Virus record (IMG/VR): IMGVR_UViG_3300025009_000025
Coordinates: 1-48,107 of that record
From: a virus
DNA length: 48,107 nucleotides
Direction: 5' to 3' (one strand)
The notes beneath the pieces are model-generated. The model was not told the DNA's origin and ran no database searches. It worked only from the letters and a program-made list of their open reading frames with translations. Below are positions 20,564 through 48,107 of this stretch, piece after piece (within the stretch, counting starts at the first letter, position 1; each line of letters opens with the position of its first letter). Both the position numbers and the translations under genes were made by a program.

Positions 20564-22027
20564 TTAATATAAATCCCAATCTTTCCATGAATCGTCTGTT
20601 TCAAATATAGCATCTGAGGTTCCAGCGTCCATGTGATTATCACTATAGCTACTTGAAGCATCACCGCTTAAAGAGGAATCTATACCTTCTGTGTCTGTCG
20701 TTTGCCCTGAATTGCTCTTTAAGTAAGGATATATATTCCTTAATAGTCCACTACCCGCACCCAAAATTGAAAGGGTATCAGCTAATTTCTGGCTGTCAGG
20801 TTTTACATACGGGTCATTGGTGTTCGCTAATTTATATAAATTCTGCAAGGCACTTTGATACGAAAGACCGCTTCTGTTCGGTGATGTAAATTCCGCTTCT
20901 GCATATGCCTGTTTCGGTATGAAATTAAAAAATGGCTTACCGCCAGCACTTATGTTCATACGGCTGCCTTGAACAGCTTTGTTCTGATATGCGGCATCTT
21001 CGTCTAACATGGTTTTGTAGCTTTTACCGCCTACACCATAAAAGTTGTCAACCATGTCATTAAATATATCCTGTGCTGTTTTTGGCGTTGTTGTTGCCAT
21101 ATTACCTCCTGTTGCACCTGGTACTACAGGTAAGCCTGTTCCTGTTATATTAGAGCCACCTACTATGTCGGGGCTTACTGGTCGAACACCTTGTAACTTA
21201 GCAAGCTCGTCTGGATTCTCCCAATAATAAGATGATTTTGCTTCTGTACCTGATAATGGTTTGTTGACACTATTGTCATAAACACCTTGTAATGGAGATT
21301 GAGAAAGCATTTCAGTATAAGGATTAGCCATACCTTTTTCTTTGGCGTTCCTCATTTCTGCAATTAATTCATCTTTATTCTGAAGAGCATCGTACCTGCT
21401 CATACCTTTTGTTCTGCCATAATCTACAATCGCTCTTTCATAATCATATCCGGGGCCTAAAGCAGCATCAGGAGCCTGTGTATCTTGCAACATCGGTTCT
21501 ATTTTAGACAGCACTTCTGGATTAACACCTTCGACTCCAGCTTGCACTGGCCCACTGCTAAGAACCTGTTTTGTAATATTTTCAGCCTGTTCTTTTGGCA
21601 TTGTTCCGATAGAAGTTATTTCTGTTTGACCTGTTACAACATTTGGTCGTAATGTTAAACCTTTTCCTGTTAATGCGTTTGTTACGAGATTGACAGCATC
21701 AAGCCCTAATCCGGCTATACGTATTGCTCCATTAGCCATGCCAAAGACCGATCTTAACGGACTTGGAAGTAAACTAATAACTTCTAATACTTTTGAAAGA
21801 TTTTCTTTTGCCTCTGGAGGCACTTCACTAAGAGAACCTTTTAACTCATTTCTGAATAAATCTCTCCATGATGGTTCTCTCACATAACGAGAAGGGATAT
21901 AATCATCATAGCCAACACCTGTTTCGCTACGACTAAACCCACCGCCATAGTTACCCTGTCCGGCTATACTTGCGCCATACCCACCATCACCACCACCATA
22001 ACCAGCAAAACTTCCTTCAAAGGCCAT
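20564..22027 (-). CDS. Internal virion protein, 487 aa
   Basis: The N-terminus is very glycine/tyrosine rich (EGSFAGYGGGDGGYGASIAGQGNYGGGFS). A hydrophobic segment (LRSVFGMANGAIRIAGLGLDAVNLVTNALTG) could insert into membranes, and the end is acidic and serine-rich. This layout suits an ejected pore-forming component. Shares a TAATG overlap with the gene before it. Confidence 0.5.
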   Translation of the reverse strand: MAFEGSFAGYGGGDGGYGASIAGQGNYGGGFSRSETGVGYDDYIPSRYVREPSWRDLFRNELKGSLSEVPPEAKENLSKVLEVISLLPSPLRSVFGMANGAIRIAGLGLDAVNLVTNALTGKGLTLRPNVVTGQTEITSIGTMPKEQAENITKQVLSSGPVQAGVEGVNPEVLSKIEPMLQDTQAPDAALGPGYDYERAIVDYGRTKGMSRYDALQNKDELIAEMRNAKEKGMANPYTEMLSQSPLQGVYDNSVNKPLSGTEAKSSYYWENPDELAKLQGVRPVSPDIVGGSNITGTGLPVVPGATGGNMATTTPKTAQDIFNDMVDNFYGVGGKSYKTMLDEDAAYQNKAVQGSRMNISAGGKPFFNFIPKQAYAEAEFTSPNRSGLSYQSALQNLYKLANTNDPYVKPDSQKLADTLSILGAGSGLLRNIYPYLKSNSGQTTDTEGIDSSLSGDASSSYSDNHMDAGTSDAIFETDDSWKDWDLY

Positions 22028-25172: not shown

Positions 25173-25847
25173 TTAAGTACACCTCAATAAGCTTGGTTGA
25201 AAAGGCTTGAGAAGCTTATCCTTTTTTTTAATATTATCGCTTGCCCATAAAGGTTGTAAGTTATCTAACGCCCAACAACGCTTAAAATCATAATCTTCGG
25301 CTTTTTCATAATTAAAAGCTGAGATTGGGATAATATGGTCTATATGCCATAAATGTCTATTATCCCATGACATCCCATCCTTGAATTGCCTTTCTATATG
25401 ATTCTTTAAATCATCAACTGTATAATTAACTAATGATTCCCAATGGCTACCATGCTTATTGCCACGCAAAGATTTTCTCATTGAAGTAGCAATATGGATA
25501 TTCAGACATCCACGTAATGTTTTATATTTCTTGTTTCCTGAACGCCTATTAATATTTTTTCTCTTTTCAGGGAATTTTTCATTCCATAATTTAGAAAACG
25601 ACAACATCTTCTCTTTGTTTTTCTCTCTCCAGTTTTTTGTTAATTCCTTTGCTCGTTTTGGATGTGTTCTTCTCCATTTTCTTGAATATTCAACAAGTCG
25701 CTCCCTGTTCTTCTTTTCCCATATTCTTTTAGATTTATATAAACAACTTTTACATGCACTTGTTTTACCGTCAACAGCACGCTTTTCAATACCAAACAGA
25801 GACACTTCTTTTTCTTCACCACATCTTGTACAAATCTTGTAATCCAT
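25173..25847 (-). CDS. HNH homing endonuclease, free-standing, 224 aa
   Basis: The N-terminal zinc ribbon CTRCGEEKEVSLFG ... CKSC (residues 6-35), then a basic helical linker with W-R repeats, then the HNH core HLWHIDHIIPISAF (H168, D170, H171) with LDNLQPLWASDN (N196, N205). It sits between adaptor and tail genes, starting in the adaptor's stop (TAATG) and ending right before the next ATG. Same family and domain order as the gene at 34093. It is expected to cut intein- or HNH-free relatives and spread itself. Confidence 0.88.
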   Translation of the reverse strand: MDYKICTRCGEEKEVSLFGIEKRAVDGKTSACKSCLYKSKRIWEKKNRERLVEYSRKWRRTHPKRAKELTKNWREKNKEKMLSFSKLWNEKFPEKRKNINRRSGNKKYKTLRGCLNIHIATSMRKSLRGNKHGSHWESLVNYTVDDLKNHIERQFKDGMSWDNRHLWHIDHIIPISAFNYEKAEDYDFKRCWALDNLQPLWASDNIKKKDKLLKPFQPSLLRCT

Positions 25848-32131: not shown

Positions 32132-34100
32132 CAGTCATCCCCCTCATCTGCTGTTCTGCCGGTTGCTGTGGTAGCCCCTGCTGATTCTGTTGCGGAGCCA
32201 TTGGATTCATCGCCGGTGGTGTCCCATGCCCTTTCCCCCCTGTTGCAAGCTGATATAAAAGCACAGTTTCTGGGTCTTCTTCAAACATATATCTCTTGAA
32301 ATGAGAGAAGTTTTTACCCATGATTTCAATCATCTGGCCGAGAATGTAGTTTACTGCCATTGGCGTTTTGGGATTTTGTATAGGAGCTATCATTCCAAGA
32401 ATACCCTGCCATGTTTTCAGCTTGTACTGTTTTGATTCTTCTGTTTCTAATGCCTGACTTACAGGCTTGAATTTATCCCTTCTTTTCGGATTATACGCTT
32501 TTGCCCCTTCTTCACCTATCAGTTGAGTTAATGTTTCTGGTAGCATGAAATCATTACATAAAGTTAATAGCATATCGTAAAATTCAGTAAAGCCGATAAA
32601 CTCCAAATTCATAGACTTCATGCCGATTCTGACATTCGCTCTTTGATTTACGATAGAAGCCATTGTTGCCGTTTCAGCTCTGTCAGGTGTCATACCCATA
32701 GTCTGAGGCGAAGTTGCCATCGCATAATCCATTCTTGACGACAACAAGTTCTGGTGAATTATACCGCCTTGTATATTATCCTGAATGGTTATTTCCTGTA
32801 AATCGTCAAGATTATCAAGCATAATGACTTTTTCAGGTGTGATTTTTATATCCTCGCTTACTGAGAATTTCTTACCTTTAAATGCGGGTGTGATTGAAAG
32901 TTTCGTGCGGTAATTCATTAAATTATAGTTATCGTTTATAGCCTTCTGAATCTCCCGATTTATCTCCCCATCTCCAAAGCCGGTGTCTTTCAGCATATCC
33001 ACATAACACAGGAATCTCACCATTGGTCTTCGTGTATGCTGTGACTTCCTGAAGCCTATTATATGCCTTATATCGTCTGATTCCCTGTTTTTCACATAGT
33101 GAATTATACATTCCATATTCACAGCATCAGGATCGAACTTACCATCAGGGAGAAGTCCAGGGACATATGTACCGTCTTTTTCTATTACCGGATATTTGCC
33201 CCATCTTTCATAAACTATAAAAGTCTTTTGAGGTGGTTGCGGCTGTTCTTCGGTCATACCATCTTTATTATATGTGGTTGTACCTCTTTCTCCTTCCGGT
33301 TCTTCCTCTTCTAACAGATCAAGATTGAAATAACCCATTGATGGTGCATCTGCTTTTAACTGGTCAAGTGTGTTTTCCGTTTCAAACAGCACATATTCCT
33401 TATCGTTAAGTGAATAGGTATATTCAGGAGACATATAGACATTCTGGACAGGATATACGTCAAAATCGGGTTTATCAGTTTCGATTCTGCTGGTAAATTT
33501 AGGTTCTTCTGTAGTCTGGAATTTGGGTTTTTGTGCTAATGGGTCTGTATAAGGTGTGTCATCTTCTGCGAGAATACTGCCTTCTTCATCATAGGTATAA
33601 TCCGATTTTTGAACATAATGGGAAAATTCCTGCACAACACTTTGTTTATACTTACCTTTTACAATACCGTATCCGCAGTTAAACACGAACATGATAAGTC
33701 TTACTATTTTATAGTAATAATACATATCCTTATCATTAAGTAGCGTATTTAACAGGTTTTTTGCCGCTTTTGATTCTGCAATATCAATAGCGTCCGTAGA
33801 GTCTAAATCCACTTCTACAAAATCAGTAGATGCAAAATATTGAGATACGAAATTACCAACCTGAGTTAATAACCTTGAGCTGTATTCCGGCAGGAATATA
33901 TCAGATTCCCAGTCGTTTGTTTTCTGTTCCCTGACTCCGTGCATCATGTCGTAATAGGCGTTAAACTCATCTACGAGTTTCTCATTATTCCTTGCGGCTA
34001 CGGTCAGTTCTTCAGATACATGAGATAATAGACTTTTTTGTATATCTTCCGACACATTCCAATCTGATTTAGGTATTTTCTTTTTTTTCTTTTTAGCCAT
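32115..34100 (-). CDS. Portal protein
   Basis: 661 aa, the usual size for P22/T7-like portals. LTVAARNNEKLVDEFNAYYDMMHGVREQKTNDWESDIFLPEYSSRLLTQVGN and the later LVNQRANVRIG-type helical region (TATMASIVNQRANVRIGMKSMNLEFIGFTEFYDMLLTLCNDFM) fit the clip/wing and crown of portals. The P/Q-rich tail (MNPMAPQQNQQGLPQQPAEQQ) is flexible. It forms the 12-fold ring that TerL docks on. Its ATG lies 8 bases inside the HNH stop. Confidence 0.85.
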   Translation of the reverse strand: MAKKKKKKIPKSDWNVSEDIQKSLLSHVSEELTVAARNNEKLVDEFNAYYDMMHGVREQKTNDWESDIFLPEYSSRLLTQVGNFVSQYFASTDFVEVDLDSTDAIDIAESKAAKNLLNTLLNDKDMYYYYKIVRLIMFVFNCGYGIVKGKYKQSVVQEFSHYVQKSDYTYDEEGSILAEDDTPYTDPLAQKPKFQTTEEPKFTSRIETDKPDFDVYPVQNVYMSPEYTYSLNDKEYVLFETENTLDQLKADAPSMGYFNLDLLEEEEPEGERGTTTYNKDGMTEEQPQPPQKTFIVYERWGKYPVIEKDGTYVPGLLPDGKFDPDAVNMECIIHYVKNRESDDIRHIIGFRKSQHTRRPMVRFLCYVDMLKDTGFGDGEINREIQKAINDNYNLMNYRTKLSITPAFKGKKFSVSEDIKITPEKVIMLDNLDDLQEITIQDNIQGGIIHQNLLSSRMDYAMATSPQTMGMTPDRAETATMASIVNQRANVRIGMKSMNLEFIGFTEFYDMLLTLCNDFMLPETLTQLIGEEGAKAYNPKRRDKFKPVSQALETEESKQYKLKTWQGILGMIAPIQNPKTPMAVNYILGQMIEIMGKNFSHFKRYMFEEDPETVLLYQLATGGKGHGTPPAMNPMAPQQNQQGLPQQPAEQQMRGMTDELGQ

Positions 34101-34773
34101 GAATACTCCTTACTCGGAATATGTTGGAAGGCTCCCAGTGTTCTTTCTTTCTTTCGTTAAACAATTTTGACTCAATTTCTGCCAATTTTTTAGGAGTATA
34201 AAATAAATCAGGCATCTTGAATCCTTTTTTTGAGTTGCATGTTTTGCATAATATAACTGCGTTTTGTGGGGATAGAGCATTACCCAAGACTAACGGGTAA
34301 TGATGATCTATATGTAGGTTGTCAATAGAACCGCAATTCGCACATGCGAAATCAAATAATTCAAAAACTCTTTTTATATCTCTTGCCAAAAAACGCTCAT
34401 TAATATTTCGTTTTATAGCTCTCCGCCGAAAAGAATAAACACGGAATTTTTCTTTGTTTTGCTCATACCATCTTAAAAAACGTTCTTTTTCTTGCTCAAT
34501 ATGCGTTGCTCTATATTTTGATCTACGCGTGTTTTCTTTTTCTTTTTCTCGTTTATATTTTTTATGTTTATATTCTTTATATTCTTCTATGTGTTTAAGA
34601 CGATAGTCTTTTGAATAACTCCTATGTTTTTCTGTATTATCAATTCTCCATTTATATGCACGTTTTCTATTGCACGCTTTGCACTCCGTATTTATACCAT
34701 CTTTCATTAATTTATGAGAACCAAATTCACCAATAGGAAGGATGTTATGACATGTTTTACATTCTCTACTCAT
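34093..34773 (-). CDS. HNH homing endonuclease carrying an ousted terL 3' end, 226 aa
   Basis: Zinc ribbon CKTCHN ... CKAC (5-34), basic helical linker, and HNH core CANCGSIDNLHIDHHYPLVLG (C144, C147, H154, D156, H157), N171 and CKTC (176-179). The last 15 residues HWEPSNIFRVRSIHG are not part of the fold: they copy the end of TerL, YWEPSRLFRGRRNE. Both stop codons lie 8 bases inside the following gene. I infer insertion at the terL 3' end with a regenerated end supplied by the donor. Confidence 0.88.
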   Translation of the reverse strand: MSRECKTCHNILPIGEFGSHKLMKDGINTECKACNRKRAYKWRIDNTEKHRSYSKDYRLKHIEEYKEYKHKKYKREKEKENTRRSKYRATHIEQEKERFLRWYEQNKEKFRVYSFRRRAIKRNINERFLARDIKRVFELFDFACANCGSIDNLHIDHHYPLVLGNALSPQNAVILCKTCNSKKGFKMPDLFYTPKKLAEIESKLFNERKKEHWEPSNIFRVRSIHG

Positions 34774-37555
34774 TTCGTCTACCCCGAAACAGTCGAGATG
34801 GTTCCCAATATACTTGCTGTTTAATATAATAGGCGGGATTTAAACAGCCCAGAAACTCCAGATTACGGCAATAATCAGAGAATTTCTGCGACTCTCTTTT
34901 AACTGTTTTCACGGCTTTTACATGCTCCTGTTTGTAATCCACATAACGCCATGATTTTAAGTGTTCTATGTGGCCTCGACAGTTGTCGAGTATCCACATG
35001 GTTGGCATATATACACCAAATCTTGTGTCTGTCAAGCTATTTTTATTAATATTATTTCCAGGTGTTCCACAAATCAGGGCATTTTTCAGCCTTGTTCTTA
35101 CAACCATGCGGCCTTCTGAGTTTTTTGTGTCTGCCGGAGTTAGCCTTCGTAAACCGTCTTCACCCATAGATAAATCCTGAAAAGTTGTGAATCCGGTGTT
35201 CCCCTGCTGTGTGTTTGCGAGAGGGTCAATTAAGGTGCATCTGTTAAATTCCTCGTCTTCTGATAACAAAGACTGAGCCTTTATTTCGTCTCTTATTTCC
35301 AATGTTACCTTATTATCATGCTTTGCCTTGATTTCGTTCCATACAAACCACTCATTCTGAGGACTTATTGCAATATAACTGATGTACCACGGCTTGGCAG
35401 GATGAAAGTCTATGATTCTATAATGCCAGTATTCCCTGAATAAAGCCGCATTAAACACATTATCAAAAGGCACAACATGAAGCTTATCATCAAAAACCTT
35501 GTATATCCTACCTGATACCTGCTTGAACACTCCATATCGCCTCATAGCGAGTTCATCAGGATCGTCTATACCTTCAAAGATACGCTCTATCGTTTCCTTG
35601 TCCATGACAGGATTATCGTCTGTAGCCCAACAAAAACACTCAATATCAGCCTTTGTATCATGCACTTCTTCCCTCTGATACCCAAACTTATCAGCAACTA
35701 TCTTAGACCGAAAGATCTTCTTAGCCCGTCTCCATATACTGTCATAAGTCCAGTCCAACCCCTTTGCCGGAGTTAAAGATATGGAAACATCGCCACCTTC
35801 TTTCAATAACCTTATGCAACATTCATCATACTTTATTCGCTCAATTTCCTCATCCTGATAATACGCTGACCTCTGCACACTCATAAAAGCGTCTAATTCC
35901 TGCGTAGAAGCCATAAACTCTATCTGATTATCAGCACCACCATATACGTTCTTCACACCCATTATCTTACTTCGAGCTGTGATTTTCTTAGATATTAATC
36001 CGGTAGGTGCTAAAATACGCCTTAATTCAATATATTGCTGATTCTGTTCATCATTCTCATCCTGAGGCACTACCTTGCTTACCATCCGTATTGGCTTATT
36101 TAACCTATTACGCTCTTTAACAGGATGTATTCCAAGCAATCTCAAAGCTACATCATAAGCACAGGTACTCGTATTATGAGCAAAAAAATTGTTTGCAACA
36201 AAATTATGGGTGTTCTTTATTGATAAATCAAAACATTGCTTTTCACCGTTTGAAGTTATTTCGGTTATCTTATCCCATAAAATATCCGAATTGGATAATT
36301 CAATTAGTTTGTTATCTTTAAAAACATCTCCAAGTTCTTTTGCTTTTTCTCTGGTAATTGTTTTGCCCCTTGCCTCTCTATAAAGTTTATATTTTGTATT
36401 ATCCTCATATACCCATTTAGTGCCTTGAATATTATTATATTTTTCTTTTCGTGGCAATTTATCTAATAAATATTCTATATTTATAGGAATTGTATCTCGA
36501 TTTTCCTTTTGGTTTTTGTCTTTCATAGAAACGACAAGATTATCGAGCTTTTCTTGTTTTGAGAATATCCCTATTGTTTTTGAGAATCTTACTAAATCAG
36601 AATATTTTCGTATAACCAATTCATAATCAATACGGTCTTCTGTCCGTGTGCTGTTTGTTCCCCAATTATTATTCTTCTTTGCTCTTATTCGTGATGGTAT
36701 GCCGAATGTTAAAAGAAGTGTTTGAACATTTGTAATTAATTCGTGAGAAACAGAAGCATATCCAACACCTTTATCATCAACCCACCCATCACAAGAAAAT
36801 AATCGAGATAAAAACATAGCTGATTTGTGCTTGCTTGAAGAAAAAACAATGGTAGGAATATATTTTTTATATGAATTACATCCAAACAACTTAGTGTATC
36901 TTAATAGATTTATAATAGGATTGCTTTTATAACCACCATTCCCAGAGATTCTATAATCACCCTTGCTTATATGCTTTATAGATACGCTGGCAGGAAGAAA
37001 ACTTCTAATTTCATCTATTATCCTTAAATCTAAATTACTAAAACTAACGCTCTTTCTGGTTATACAACCATCACCTATCAAATACCCCAATATTTTATAA
37101 ACCCAATCCTTATAATCTTTGTGCGGAATAACAGGCAATATTCTTGGCACAGCAATATAATCGCCAACTCTTAACTGTGCTACTTCTTTCCACCCATCTA
37201 TAGTATAAAAGGGATGGCATGTCGTTGTGGTTACATCCCTTCCCGTCCTTGTTTTTATAGTAACAGTTGGTTTAATTCCACTGTCTATTTTTTTAAGAAC
37301 TAAAGATGCAACTATTTTATAATCTTCATCAAGACTTAATACATAATCAAAAGGATTAATATCTTTTATTTTCTTAATAATACCAGAATATAATTGTATA
37401 TTGGTGTTTTCTTCAAGACACCCGCCACCTTGATTTCCTTTAATTATAGCCCTTGTGTTGGACTTGCTTGTCAGATACTTCAAAGCAGTATCGTGCATCT
37501 TATACGACAGCAAACTCTCGTACTTTAAATAAGGATCACTTATCTCTATCGGCAT
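34766..37555 (-). CDS. terL: Terminase large subunit interrupted by an intein
   Basis: 929 aa as translated, 513 aa after removal of the 416-residue intein, the normal TerL size. The ATPase P-loop is IIKGNQGGG (37-45) rejoined to TSTCAYD (462 on). K39 and the lack of GKT make it a deviant Walker A. QDEEIERIKYDE supplies the acidic Walker B region. The C-terminal nuclease part includes YRIIDFHPAKPW and the acid IDPLAN. TerL cuts the concatemer and pumps DNA through the portal. It overlaps terS by 20 bases. Confidence 0.93.
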   Translation of the reverse strand: MPIEISDPYLKYESLLSYKMHDTALKYLTSKSNTRAIIKGNQGGGCLEENTNIQLYSGIIKKIKDINPFDYVLSLDEDYKIVASLVLKKIDSGIKPTVTIKTRTGRDVTTTTCHPFYTIDGWKEVAQLRVGDYIAVPRILPVIPHKDYKDWVYKILGYLIGDGCITRKSVSFSNLDLRIIDEIRSFLPASVSIKHISKGDYRISGNGGYKSNPIINLLRYTKLFGCNSYKKYIPTIVFSSSKHKSAMFLSRLFSCDGWVDDKGVGYASVSHELITNVQTLLLTFGIPSRIRAKKNNNWGTNSTRTEDRIDYELVIRKYSDLVRFSKTIGIFSKQEKLDNLVVSMKDKNQKENRDTIPINIEYLLDKLPRKEKYNNIQGTKWVYEDNTKYKLYREARGKTITREKAKELGDVFKDNKLIELSNSDILWDKITEITSNGEKQCFDLSIKNTHNFVANNFFAHNTSTCAYDVALRLLGIHPVKERNRLNKPIRMVSKVVPQDENDEQNQQYIELRRILAPTGLISKKITARSKIMGVKNVYGGADNQIEFMASTQELDAFMSVQRSAYYQDEEIERIKYDECCIRLLKEGGDVSISLTPAKGLDWTYDSIWRRAKKIFRSKIVADKFGYQREEVHDTKADIECFCWATDDNPVMDKETIERIFEGIDDPDELAMRRYGVFKQVSGRIYKVFDDKLHVVPFDNVFNAALFREYWHYRIIDFHPAKPWYISYIAISPQNEWFVWNEIKAKHDNKVTLEIRDEIKAQSLLSEDEEFNRCTLIDPLANTQQGNTGFTTFQDLSMGEDGLRRLTPADTKNSEGRMVVRTRLKNALICGTPGNNINKNSLTDTRFGVYMPTMWILDNCRGHIEHLKSWRYVDYKQEHVKAVKTVKRESQKFSDYCRNLEFLGCLNPAYYIKQQVYWEPSRLFRGRRNE
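36173..37420 (-). mobile_element. LAGLIDADG-type intein in the TerL P-loop
   Basis: Residues C46 to N461 of the precursor. N-terminal splice block CLEENTNIQLYSG, block B with the TxxH pattern (TTTTCHPFYT), and C-terminal VANNFFAHN followed by extein T462: standard Cys...His-Asn class. Two LAGLIDADG helices are present, ILGYLIGDGCI (155-165) and FLSRLFSCDGWV (248-259), so the homing endonuclease looks intact. The insertion point between G45 and T462 in the ATP loop leaves TerL inactive until spliced. Confidence 0.95.
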
Positions 37556-43418: not shown

Positions 43419-44069
43419 CTACCTATCAAGTGTTTTTCGTATATTATAAATATCCAGACAATGTAAAAATAGGCTAAAATGCTTATCTAAATTACCTATG
43501 GACGCATACTCAAAACCCTCGTCCTCTGATCTGCCTACTCTTAATATCACAACATCAACAACAGGAAAGCCGTTCTCGGTTAATAGCTCCTTATATGCCG
43601 CAACCTGGTGCTTCATTTCAGGCCATATACCAGAGCCGGAAGTCTTGATGTCAATTAGTGTTGGCTTATCGTTTAACATGGCATAAATATCAATAGTTCC
43701 ACCATATTGATGAACCTCGGATACAAGCGGGACTTCTGAAAGAATCAGCTTCAAGTCTTTACCTTTTTTCCATTCCAGGAACTTTAAAAAGCCGTTCTCC
43801 GCTTCAGATACTACCGATGGGGCATAGTCTTTCAGGTCTGGCTTCTCCCCTTTAAGCTCACACTCGATTAAATAATGGCAACAAGTCCCGATTTCCGCTT
43901 TATCATCTACATATTTTGTAGAATCAATGCCTTGAAGTCCCAAGCGATTAGCCCATGCGATTAATGCCGGTTTTGCAAGCACATTCAGAGCGGTTGTAAC
44001 TCCGACAACAATCTTGTCTTCCTTGTTGCGATACCGGATATGAGCTTTGGTCTTTTCTTTTGCTTTCAT
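43419..44069 (-). CDS. PD-(D/E)XK exonuclease (RecB/Cas4-like)
   Basis: 216 aa. The active site reads GGTIDIYAMLNDKPTLIDIKTSGSGIWPEMKHQVAAY: D127, then D140-I-K142, then Q155 and Y159. The early CCHYLIECE (H65) fits the RecB-family motif I. It would trim DNA ends for recombination or replication. Last gene of the leftward recombination operon. Confidence 0.85.
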   Translation of the reverse strand: MKAKEKTKAHIRYRNKEDKIVVGVTTALNVLAKPALIAWANRLGLQGIDSTKYVDDKAEIGTCCHYLIECELKGEKPDLKDYAPSVVSEAENGFLKFLEWKKGKDLKLILSEVPLVSEVHQYGGTIDIYAMLNDKPTLIDIKTSGSGIWPEMKHQVAAYKELLTENGFPVVDVVILRVGRSEDEGFEYASIGNLDKHFSLFLHCLDIYNIRKTLDR

Positions 44070-45079: not shown

Positions 45080-45243
45080 GCGCCCTCCTGTTCTTTCTCT
45101 TTGGCGTTTTCGACTCGATATGCACCATATTGTTCGCTGCAAACCCACTTCTCTCCGTCTGAAGCAAACCCGAACTTCTTTACATGATGTTCCAAAATTA
45201 TTTCGTCAACTTCTTCTCGGCTGTATTTAATACTAATGTCCAT
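45076..45243 (-). CDS. 55-aa unknown protein
   Basis: ATG 45243 with AACAGGAGGGAGT. MDISIKYSREEVDEIILEHHVKKFGFASDGEKWVCSEQYGAYRVEN resembles small phage proteins that follow regulators. Unknown. Confidence 0.6.
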   Translation of the reverse strand: MDISIKYSREEVDEIILEHHVKKFGFASDGEKWVCSEQYGAYRVENAKEKEQEGA

Positions 45244-45256
45244 ACTCCCTCCTGTT

Positions 45257-45275
45257 ATTCCTATTTAGTAGGACT
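45257..45275 (-). repeat. Palindrome element 9 (core CTACTAAATAG on the minus strand)
   Basis: Arms ATTCCTA and TAGGACT around a 5-nt centre. It contains the TAA stop of the 45265 gene and ends 13 bases before the start of the next. Confidence 0.7.
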
Positions 45276-45495
45276 TTTCGCCCCTCATAGCCTGTTTGAT
45301 TTTATCAAGCTCAGACTGTTCGCCATTGATGGTTTCGTGAAGTTGTTCAGCAATATAAGCTATGAAATAACGGGGCATAAGCACAACTATTCTTTTGTTT
45401 TTGTCAGTAATAGTTATTGTGAAATTACTTTTGCTTCCTATTTTAGACACTACAACATCAAAAGGCTCTATATTGATTGTCTTTCTCCTCTTCAT
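45265..45495 (-). CDS. 76-aa unknown protein
   Basis: MKRRKTINIEPFDVVVSKIGSKSNFTITITDKNKRIVVLMPRYFIAYIAEQLHETI has beta strands then helix. AAGGAGGAACT before the ATG, which overlaps the end of a gene fossil by ATGA. Unknown. Confidence 0.6.
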   Translation of the reverse strand: MKRRKTINIEPFDVVVSKIGSKSNFTITITDKNKRIVVLMPRYFIAYIAEQLHETINGEQSELDKIKQAMRGEKSY

Positions 45496-45557
45496 AGTTC
45501 CTCCTTAAATTCATCCCAAAGTGATTGCCAGATTTCATTGTTTGATTCCCTTATTTC
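45492..45557 (-). pseudogene. Left-behind 3' end of the 46032 gene
   Basis: Open frame without a start reading EIRESNNEIWQSLWDEFKEEL then TGA, which overlaps the next ATG. It aligns with the end of the 46032 gene (ESMEAAEIWQELWNQFKGGRE): EIWQ-x-LW-x-x-FK. I read it as the original end, cut off when the 45556 nuclease gene moved in with its own replacement end. Confidence 0.75.
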
Positions 45558-46035
45558 ATAGCATTATTTTCATCTGAATATTCTTTTTAACTTCTTTAAC
45601 CGTAAGTTTTTTTGGAACAAATGTCCAATCCATTCGACTGTTTTCTTCATTAAGAAGCTCCCCACTTATTTTTCTTATCTCCAATTTAATTTTGGGGTAT
45701 AGCTCACGAAACTGAGCATAAGCTATTTTATTCTGGTGGTATGCCTGCCTTGACCCAACGACCTCTATAAAAACATTCGCTTCACCATCATAAAAATCGG
45801 GACTATATCTGAAGGTGTTTAATCGAAAATTAGCCGGAGAATATACCCAATTTGTATGTTTAAAATAATTGTCTATAAACTCAAGTTCCCTATCATGCAA
45901 AAACAACTCCTTTTCTTGTGTTAATGTCATTCTGTCTTTAACACGATACGCACGATAATAATTTCCATAACATTTTCTACATAGTTGTCTTTTTGCGTTA
46001 TAAACATTTGAATCACCACAAATCCCACAGCTCAT
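45556..46035 (-). CDS. Putative PD-(D/E)XK homing endonuclease with zinc ribbon, 159 aa
   Basis: C3, C6, C19 and C22 form an N-terminal zinc ribbon (CGICG ... CRKC) like those of homing nucleases. A nuclease-like core follows: RYSPDFYDGEANVFIEVVGSRQAYHQNK, with P79-D80 and E91-V-V, similar to VSR-/PD-(D/E)XK homing enzymes. It overlaps the 46032 gene by ATGA and is followed by a fossil of that gene's end. Confidence 0.65.
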   Translation of the reverse strand: MSCGICGDSNVYNAKRQLCRKCYGNYYRAYRVKDRMTLTQEKELFLHDRELEFIDNYFKHTNWVYSPANFRLNTFRYSPDFYDGEANVFIEVVGSRQAYHQNKIAYAQFRELYPKIKLEIRKISGELLNEENSRMDWTFVPKKLTVKEVKKNIQMKIML

Positions 46036-46238
46036 TCCCTACCTCCTTTGAATTGGTTCCAAAGCTCCTGCCATATTTCAGCCGCTTCCATGCTTTCGGT
46101 CACGTCTTCACCATCAACAAAGCATCTGTCAGACCTTCCGGCGTCTATTTCATATCCCTGATTGATAAGCCACTTTTCAAAGGCTTTTCCATCCCTTATG
46201 CTCTGGCCAACTTCGATAACGTGATTATTCTTTTTCAT
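46032..46238 (-). CDS. 68-aa protein, host gene of an endonuclease insertion
   Basis: MKKNNHVIEVGQSIRDGKAFEKWLINQGYEIDAGRSDRCFVDGEDVTESMEAAEIWQELWNQFKGGRE, first gene of the leftward operon, with AGGAG before its ATG. The last 15 residues have a diverged second copy at 45492-45557. The fold and job are unknown. Confidence 0.65.
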   Translation of the reverse strand: MKKNNHVIEVGQSIRDGKAFEKWLINQGYEIDAGRSDRCFVDGEDVTESMEAAEIWQELWNQFKGGRE

Positions 46239-46245
46239 GGCTCCT

Positions 46246-46274
46246 TTTATAAATAACTCTCAAAAATAATGCAA
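46246..46274 (-). promoter_or_regulatory. Weak leftward promoter candidate
   Basis: TTGCAT, 17 bases, TATAAA on the minus strand. The start of transcription would lie only a few bases before the ATG 46238, so the mRNA would be leaderless and its ribosome site lost. The real promoter may be farther upstream. Confidence 0.3.
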
Positions 46275-46348
46275 GTTCGGCTTAATACCATTTTCGACTG
46301 TTTTAATCCAATAAAGGCTATTATGCCCTCAAAAATACTTTGTTCATA

Positions 46349-46382
46349 GATTTGCTTCGATTTGCTTCGATTTGCTGATTTG
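46349..46382. repeat. Tandem GATTTGCTTC repeats next to a promoter
   Basis: GATTTGCTTC at 46349 and 46359, then GATTTGCT at 46369 and GATTTG at 46377, a 10-base period equal to one helical turn. The last unit runs into the -35 box TTGACA. Confidence 0.85.
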
Positions 46383-46408
46383 ACAAAAGGAAATGAATCG
46401 GTTTATAT
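46380..46408 (+). promoter_or_regulatory. Strong rightward sigma-70-type promoter
   Basis: TTGACA at 46380-46385, a 17-base spacer and TTATAT at 46403-46408. It lies about 30 bases before the first gene of the long early operon that crosses the circle junction. Confidence 0.85.
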
Positions 46409-46436
46409 ATCAGCTAAAAACAAAGGAGTTACTTTA

Positions 46437-46622
46437 ATGCCACGACCCCGCAAGGACTTCAACCAGCTCATGCTGGATTACAATCGTAGATTCGGTAAGA
46501 CATATTTTAATGTTGATTGGTGGCTCCTTGACTTGCAATTAAGGCTTTCTGTCAGGGCAATCGCTCGCTTAATCAAAGTTGACAGGACTGTTTTAACACG
46601 GAAGCTAAAGGAGCTGATATGA
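46437..46622 (+). CDS. HTH DNA-binding protein, 61 aa
   Basis: ATG 46437 (AAAGGAGTTACTTTA). MPRPRKDFNQLMLDYNRRFGKTYFNVDWWLLDLQLRLSVRAIARLIKVDRTVLTRKLKELI: the last 25 residues form a clear helix-turn-helix of the Fis/resolvase type (SVRAIARLIKVDRTVLTRKLK). First gene of the early operon, so probably its regulator. Confidence 0.75.
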   Translation: MPRPRKDFNQLMLDYNRRFGKTYFNVDWWLLDLQLRLSVRAIARLIKVDRTVLTRKLKELI

Positions 46623-47953: not shown

Positions 47954-48107
47954 ATGAAAGAAATAGATGATATTAAAAAACAGACCAACACAATAAACAT
48001 AACAATGGCACTAACAGTAATAGTTTTAATCGGAGGCATAATTGCTGGATTTATGCTACTTGATGAATCTCTTGATAACAAAATTGCTGATGTGTCATGT
48101 ATATCTG
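47954..48107 (+). CDS. 5' part of the junction-crossing membrane protein
   Basis: ATG 47954 with AAAGGTAAAAAC starts the 95-aa protein that continues at base 1. Its first 9 codons lie before the repeat, and the rest duplicates 1-127. See the entry at base 1. Confidence 0.85.
   Translation, partial: MKEIDDIKKQTNTINITMALTVIVLIGGIIAGFMLLDESLDNKIADVSCIS
47981..48107. repeat. Terminal direct repeat, right copy
   Basis: Identical to bases 1-127. Counting it once gives a circle of 47,980 bp. Confidence 0.95.

Follow-up and report, generated by a model that had tools for sequence, protein, structure and literature searches.

In fungal mitochondria, mobile endonuclease ORFs with a carboxy-terminal duplication have been described in atp6 of Allomyces and in atp6, atp9, cox2 and nad3 of Glomus (PMC3630166). 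In these cases a foreign C-terminal end completes the host gene and the native end is left downstream of the ORF; the two atp6 ends of Glomus show 63.5% nucleotide identity (PMC3630166). In phages, homing endonuclease genes are described either as intron-borne or as free-standing genes located between others, in many cases close to terminase (PMC6083498, PMC10448857), and PD-(D/E)XK is one of the nuclease families used for homing (PMC6083498). Here we describe a locus in a 48,107-nt viral contig (IMG/VR record IMGVR_UViG_3300025009_000025, whose full length is referred to as the window) where the C-terminal end of a host gene is duplicated on both sides of an inserted ORF, which is the trait of the fungal gene-end-carrying ORFs.

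We consider the fungal mitochondrial mobile ORFs to be the closest known kind, since in both settings an endonuclease-type ORF lies near the 3′ end of a gene, with a carried end upstream and a native end (here a presumed one) downstream. They differ in that the fungal ORFs encode LAGLIDADG or GIY-YIG enzymes whereas the present case is a bacteriophage with a PD-(D/E)XK-like protein, and in that the ends described here hold the ribosome-binding sites of translationally coupled genes. The seg and mob genes of T4 and the T5orf172 genes of ICP1 are optional nuclease genes between two conserved genes, often near terminase or other essential genes (PMC6083498, PMC10448857), an arrangement that the focal locus may share, but they are described as lying between genes and no duplicated end was seen in the stretches scanned. 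No report of a carried gene end in phages was found in the literature searched, which covered few subscription journals and is therefore weak evidence of novelty.

The focal locus reads, along the minus strand, as a 68-aa gene, a nuclease-like gene, a startless frame and a 76-aa gene (Table 1). The final residues of the 68-aa gene are AEIWQELWNQFKGGRE, and its stop shares an ATGA with the start of the nuclease-like gene; those of the startless frame are NNEIWQSLWDEFKEEL, with the stop sharing an ATGA with the start of the 76-aa gene. Both gene ends and both overlaps had been reported in a first-pass annotation and are present in the sequence as it stated. The two ends can also be aligned as DNA. 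No ATG, GTG or TTG follows the last stop preceding the stranded frame, which lies in a different reading frame from the nuclease-like gene (whose protein ends MKIML) and retains the Shine-Dalgarno sequence AAGGAGG of the 76-aa gene. Lacking a start and being out of the nuclease frame, the stranded copy cannot now be kept as protein. In Pfam, PHROGs and NCBIfam, nothing above noise level was found for the 68-aa host protein.

Table 1 Features of the focal locus and of the parallel case at terL (window coordinates)
Feature	Coordinates	Strand	Remark
Host gene, 68 aa, function not assigned; ends in the presumed replacement end	46032..46238	-	
Upstream 3′-end copy, EIWQELWNQFKGGRE then stop; presumed replacement end; holds the nuclease Shine-Dalgarno sequence AAAGGAGG	46032..46079	-	
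Inserted gene, zinc-ribbon and PD-(D/E)XK-like candidate nuclease, 159 aa, G+C 0.333	45556..46035	-	
Stranded startless 3′-end copy, CYEIRESNNEIWQSLWDEFKEEL then stop; presumed original end	45492..45563	-	
Next gene, 76 aa, function not assigned; start overlaps the stranded end by ATGA	45265..45495	-	
terL replacement end, ..IKQQVYWEPSRLFRGRRNE then stop	34766..34826	-	Parallel case
Inserted gene at the end of terL, HNH/endonuclease VII-like	34093..34773	-	Parallel case
Original end of terL, joined in frame to the HNH gene; corresponds to the intact end in L003	34093..34159	-	

The duplicated-gene-end layout at this locus is real, and it stands out from the remainder of the genome. All pairs of 20-residue tails preceding stops on the same strand and 250–1600 nt apart were scored with BLOSUM62 across the window (n = 27,794). 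The focal pair ranked first with a score of 54 and the terL/HNH pair second with 46; these are exactly the two pairs that had been picked out by eye in the first-pass annotation. With shuffled tails, approximately 0.005 pairs were expected at scores of at least 52 and 0.06 at scores of at least 44, the highest score in 200 shuffles being 52. None of the more distant tail pairs (n = 453,228) exceeded 46 apart from the terminal repeat, and comparison of the stranded tail with every other stop of the genome gave no score above 29. The Shine-Dalgarno sequence falls in the FK(G/E)(G/E) part of the alignment; a shared Shine-Dalgarno sequence is not the explanation of the likeness, because most of the focal score comes from EIWQ.LW.

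The second-ranked pair could be compared with a relative that lacks the inserted gene. Among the 18 related loci recovered by a portal search, L003 (portal 91% identical) has no HNH gene behind terL, which ends YYEQKKEFWEPSNIFRVRSIHA and leads into the start of the portal gene. The window terL has YYIKQQVYWEPSRLFRGRRNE as its end and is followed by the HNH gene, with last residues KKEHWEPSNIFRVRSIHG, and then by the portal gene. At the DNA level the two sequences share 89 identical bases up to window position 34827, diverge abruptly and match again behind the HNH gene, so that the insertion was precise with little or nothing lost. Because the HNH-less terL of L003 ends in the sequence that is fused behind the HNH gene, this comparison shows that terL originally ended in what is now the downstream copy, and that the upstream copy has replaced it. 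In sequence this replacement end is similar to the ends of terL in more distant relatives (EPSxLFQGR), and thus it was probably derived from another phage. The L003 terL end around GCCTATTA/CGAA is a candidate target of the HNH protein. At both the terL and the focal site the next gene has its ribosome-binding site within the gene end, and the stranded copy preserves it. Both inserts also rank near the bottom of the genome's genes in G+C (HNH 0.32 and nuclease 0.333, against 0.403 for the genome).

Two further observations were made at terL. The 89 identical bases (window 34827–34915, L003 8473–8561) adjoin the HNH insertion point in a gene that is otherwise about 86% identical nearby (86.5% over the 400 nt preceding the run), and are possibly a trace of recent exchange at this site. 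The window terL (34766–37555, minus strand) also carries an intein with a LAGLIDADG_3 domain (36173–37375), which is missing from the L003 match; intein and HNH gene thus occupy the same gene in the window.

A corresponding empty site was sought for the focal insertion. No relative without the insert was found using viral-contig peptide patterns for the host gene, nuclease and next gene, a tail pattern, or sensitive searches of the recovered loci. Peptide patterns of the 68-aa, 76-aa, 169-aa and nuclease proteins identified no relatives in viral contigs, blastn of the focal region against phages was empty, and the portal-recovered relatives, most of them fragments, contained no homologue of the host gene. 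The candidates set aside were the single viral-contig match to the tail pattern (unrelated, and attributed to chance), a Klebsiella phage match of the 68-aa protein (H23; weak, and to a different protein) and a locus containing an exonuclease relative (L031), which has other neighbours. As no empty focal site was found, it is by analogy with terL that we infer the downstream end to be the original and the upstream end the replacement. The first-pass description of a replaced and a left-behind 3′ end as at terL was therefore sound as an analogy, given the empty site in L003, while its assignment of the two focal ends takes on the strength of that analogy.

The protein encoded at 45556 belongs to no Pfam or NCBIfam family; tblastn searches returned nothing from phages and one weak match from plasmids, rejected as chance. 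Relatives were then sought in viral contigs with a pattern built on EVxG[ST]RQx[YF]xxNK and were found in seven. Three of these (L033, L034 and L039) are 42–46% identical to the 45556 protein and have the same CxxC...CxxC zinc ribbon. YxPDF, which lies beyond the residues that the pattern prescribes, does not vary among the complete family members, and the E-V-x-G motif lacks the lysine customary for PD-(D/E)XK enzymes. All seven alignment members were matched by PHROG 9019 (Holliday junction resolvase; best E 1.9e-6) and four of the seven by PHROG 945 (endonuclease). A profile search of solved structures gave weak PD-(D/E)XK matches (influenza PA endonuclease domain and T7 endonuclease I), and a fold search with the structure model (mean pLDDT 80) led to nuclease folds with modest scores. 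The invariant YxPDF...IEV, the nuclease-type fold and the PHROG resolvase and endonuclease matches agree with the earlier designation as nuclease-like and make the protein, with its zinc ribbon, a credible candidate nuclease of the PD-(D/E)XK type.

The core motif YxPDF...IEV and the fold-search neighbours are shared with T7 endonuclease I type resolvases, Vsr, DUF559 and PHROG 9019/945. The 45556 protein differs from these PD-(D/E)XK nucleases in its N-terminal zinc ribbon and in an E-V-x-G-[ST]-R-Q motif in which the customary lysine is missing, and the matches are weak. Since the nearest family, PHROG 9019, is named for a Holliday junction resolvase, the protein may be a recombination enzyme. 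One prophage-like relative was identified in a scan of genome contigs (Syntrophaceae locus L040), and no further relative was found in 155 genomes of its class. Across L033, L034, L035, L036, L037, L039 and L040 the core YxPDF...IEVxG[ST]RQxY is joined to the zinc ribbon or to other N- or C-terminal parts, a pattern that suggests exchange of DNA-binding modules. The Rfam search, which gave no hit at gathering score across the window and none with E ≤ 1 within 45200–46600, spoke against a self-splicing intron around the ORF, and a reading of it as an intron-encoded endonuclease was rejected.

We propose that homing by a nuclease is the likeliest driver of the layout at terL and at the focal site, with a probability of about 0.58. 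The mobile unit would be a cassette made of a diverged copy of the host-gene 3′ end, including its stop codon and ribosome-binding site, together with the nuclease gene, and would have been inserted within the last codons of gene 46032. The carried end would restore the C-terminus of the host protein and start translation of the nuclease, and the original end would be left downstream, untranslated, where it still provides the next gene with its ribosome-binding site. Cutting of the gene end in its uninterrupted form by the PD-(D/E)XK-like protein would be followed by repair, in which the cassette is copied from a phage that carries it. The many nucleotide differences in the carried end should make the occupied site resistant to cutting. 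Cutting, specificity and homing are putative properties of the 45556 protein.

In favour of cassette homing we count the top-ranked duplicated end in the window, the synonymous codon differences through which the two copies keep the same residues, the terL parallel with its empty counterpart, the A+T-rich inserts, the lack of an intron in the Rfam search, and the occurrence of the nuclease family in other phage contigs and in a prophage-like locus with different DNA-binding parts. Against it we count that searches yielded no insert-less relative of the focal site, that the nuclease relatives are free-standing with no duplicated end, the resolvase name of PHROG 9019, the missing lysine, and a non-nuclease cargo in a related genome, G017.

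This last case came from applying the same tail scan to the relatives, which revealed a third duplicated gene end (G017 20664–21420, equivalent to L028 664–1420; portal approximately half identical). There, the end of an 86-aa gene, GKRCKLFTKAFKAEWEAR, overlaps by ATGA a 142-aa gene that is nucleoside-deoxyribosyltransferase-like (Pfam E 0.025, which is below the cut-off) and not a nuclease, and a startless GKRCRLFMKAFKRRG.. follows this cargo just before the next start. The part to compare is GKRCKLFTKAFK.. in the 86-aa gene end and GKRCRLFMKAFK.. in the startless copy; the tail pair scores 50, and none of 20 shuffles of that stretch gave a pair of at least 46. Either a nuclease was lost or replaced at this locus or the layout can arise with no cutting of DNA by the cargo, and nuclease-driven homing may not be its only cause. 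Other high-scoring tail pairs in the relatives look like paralogue repeats.

The main rival to homing, strengthened by this third case, is general recombination: the insertion would be real and the nuclease a passenger, with phage recombination at gene ends that hold ribosome-binding sites duplicating the end around any cargo. The genome does have its own exonuclease gene (43419–44069; PHROG 298), which fits such a process together with G017. G017 is however just one such case, and at terL the inserted gene is a nuclease and its insertion is of the precision expected from a nuclease cut. We regard general recombination as an unlikely but serious alternative.

If gene 46032 had been duplicated in tandem and the nuclease had taken the place of the second copy except for its end, the same stranded end would result. 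Four of the six shared residues that have synonymous codons (I, Q, F and K, of E, I, Q, L, F and K) are nevertheless coded differently in the two copies. In view of the startless downstream copy, such divergence would be better explained by the joining of two gene ends with separate histories than by copying in place. It implies long separate evolution under selection, yet the rest of a second copy is absent; at terL, L003 shows an insertion and no tandem gene. Tandem duplication is accordingly improbable. Chance likeness, or a C-terminal docking motif and ribosome-binding sequence shared by unrelated proteins, is more improbable still: the Shine-Dalgarno sequence does contribute to FK(G/E)(G/E), but only some 0.005 such pairs are expected, no other tail of the genome passes 29, the tail-pattern scan of viral contigs gave one unrelated match and the short frame has no start.

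The duplicated-gene-end layout is uncommon. Free-standing genes with no gene-end duplication were found at every placed nuclease relative (L033, L034, L036, L039 and L040), and at four of these loci (L033, L034, L039 and L040) the nuclease gene follows a non-coding stretch at the head of an apparent early operon. No gene-end duplication was seen either at the nuclease genes of ten published loci, whose HNH genes are related to the one at terL, or around those in 200 kb of T4, ICP1 and S-PM2. A few high-scoring tail pairs in the T4, ICP1 and S-PM2 stretches look like other repeats. The suggestion in the first-pass annotation of a general way of entering genes at their 3′ ends is weakened at this breadth: 3′-end entry does occur, but not as a general habit of nucleases, nor is it confined to them, the G017 cargo being a non-nuclease.

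How new genes enter the packed, overlapping genes of phages without breaking translation is a real question, to which a cassette that supplies both a ribosome-binding site and the end of the target gene would be an answer. What we describe looks like a damage-free entry route for a mobile gene into other genes, and would place a mechanism known from fungal mitochondria into bacteriophages. Its trace, a startless gene end stranded downstream of a gene, offers a signature for scanning any genome and marks the likely cut site of an unassigned nuclease. More tentatively, and with considerable doubt, HNH, PD-(D/E)XK-like and even non-nuclease genes might enter coupled operons in this phage group as ‘capped cassettes’, each consisting of a spare end of the target gene, a ribosome-binding site and a cargo gene, such that host and next gene are unharmed. 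If true, capped cassettes would serve phage genes in general as a route of insertion, and not selfish nucleases alone.

Other features of the genome were also recorded. Positions 1–127 and 47981–48107 of the window form an exact 127-nt direct repeat, and the contig is therefore probably complete, representing a circular or terminally redundant genome. A 224-aa gene of low G+C (25173–25847, minus strand; 0.33) has no Pfam match; its homologues seem to lie at non-matching positions in the relatives L021 and L025, and on these sequence features the gene is possibly mobile.
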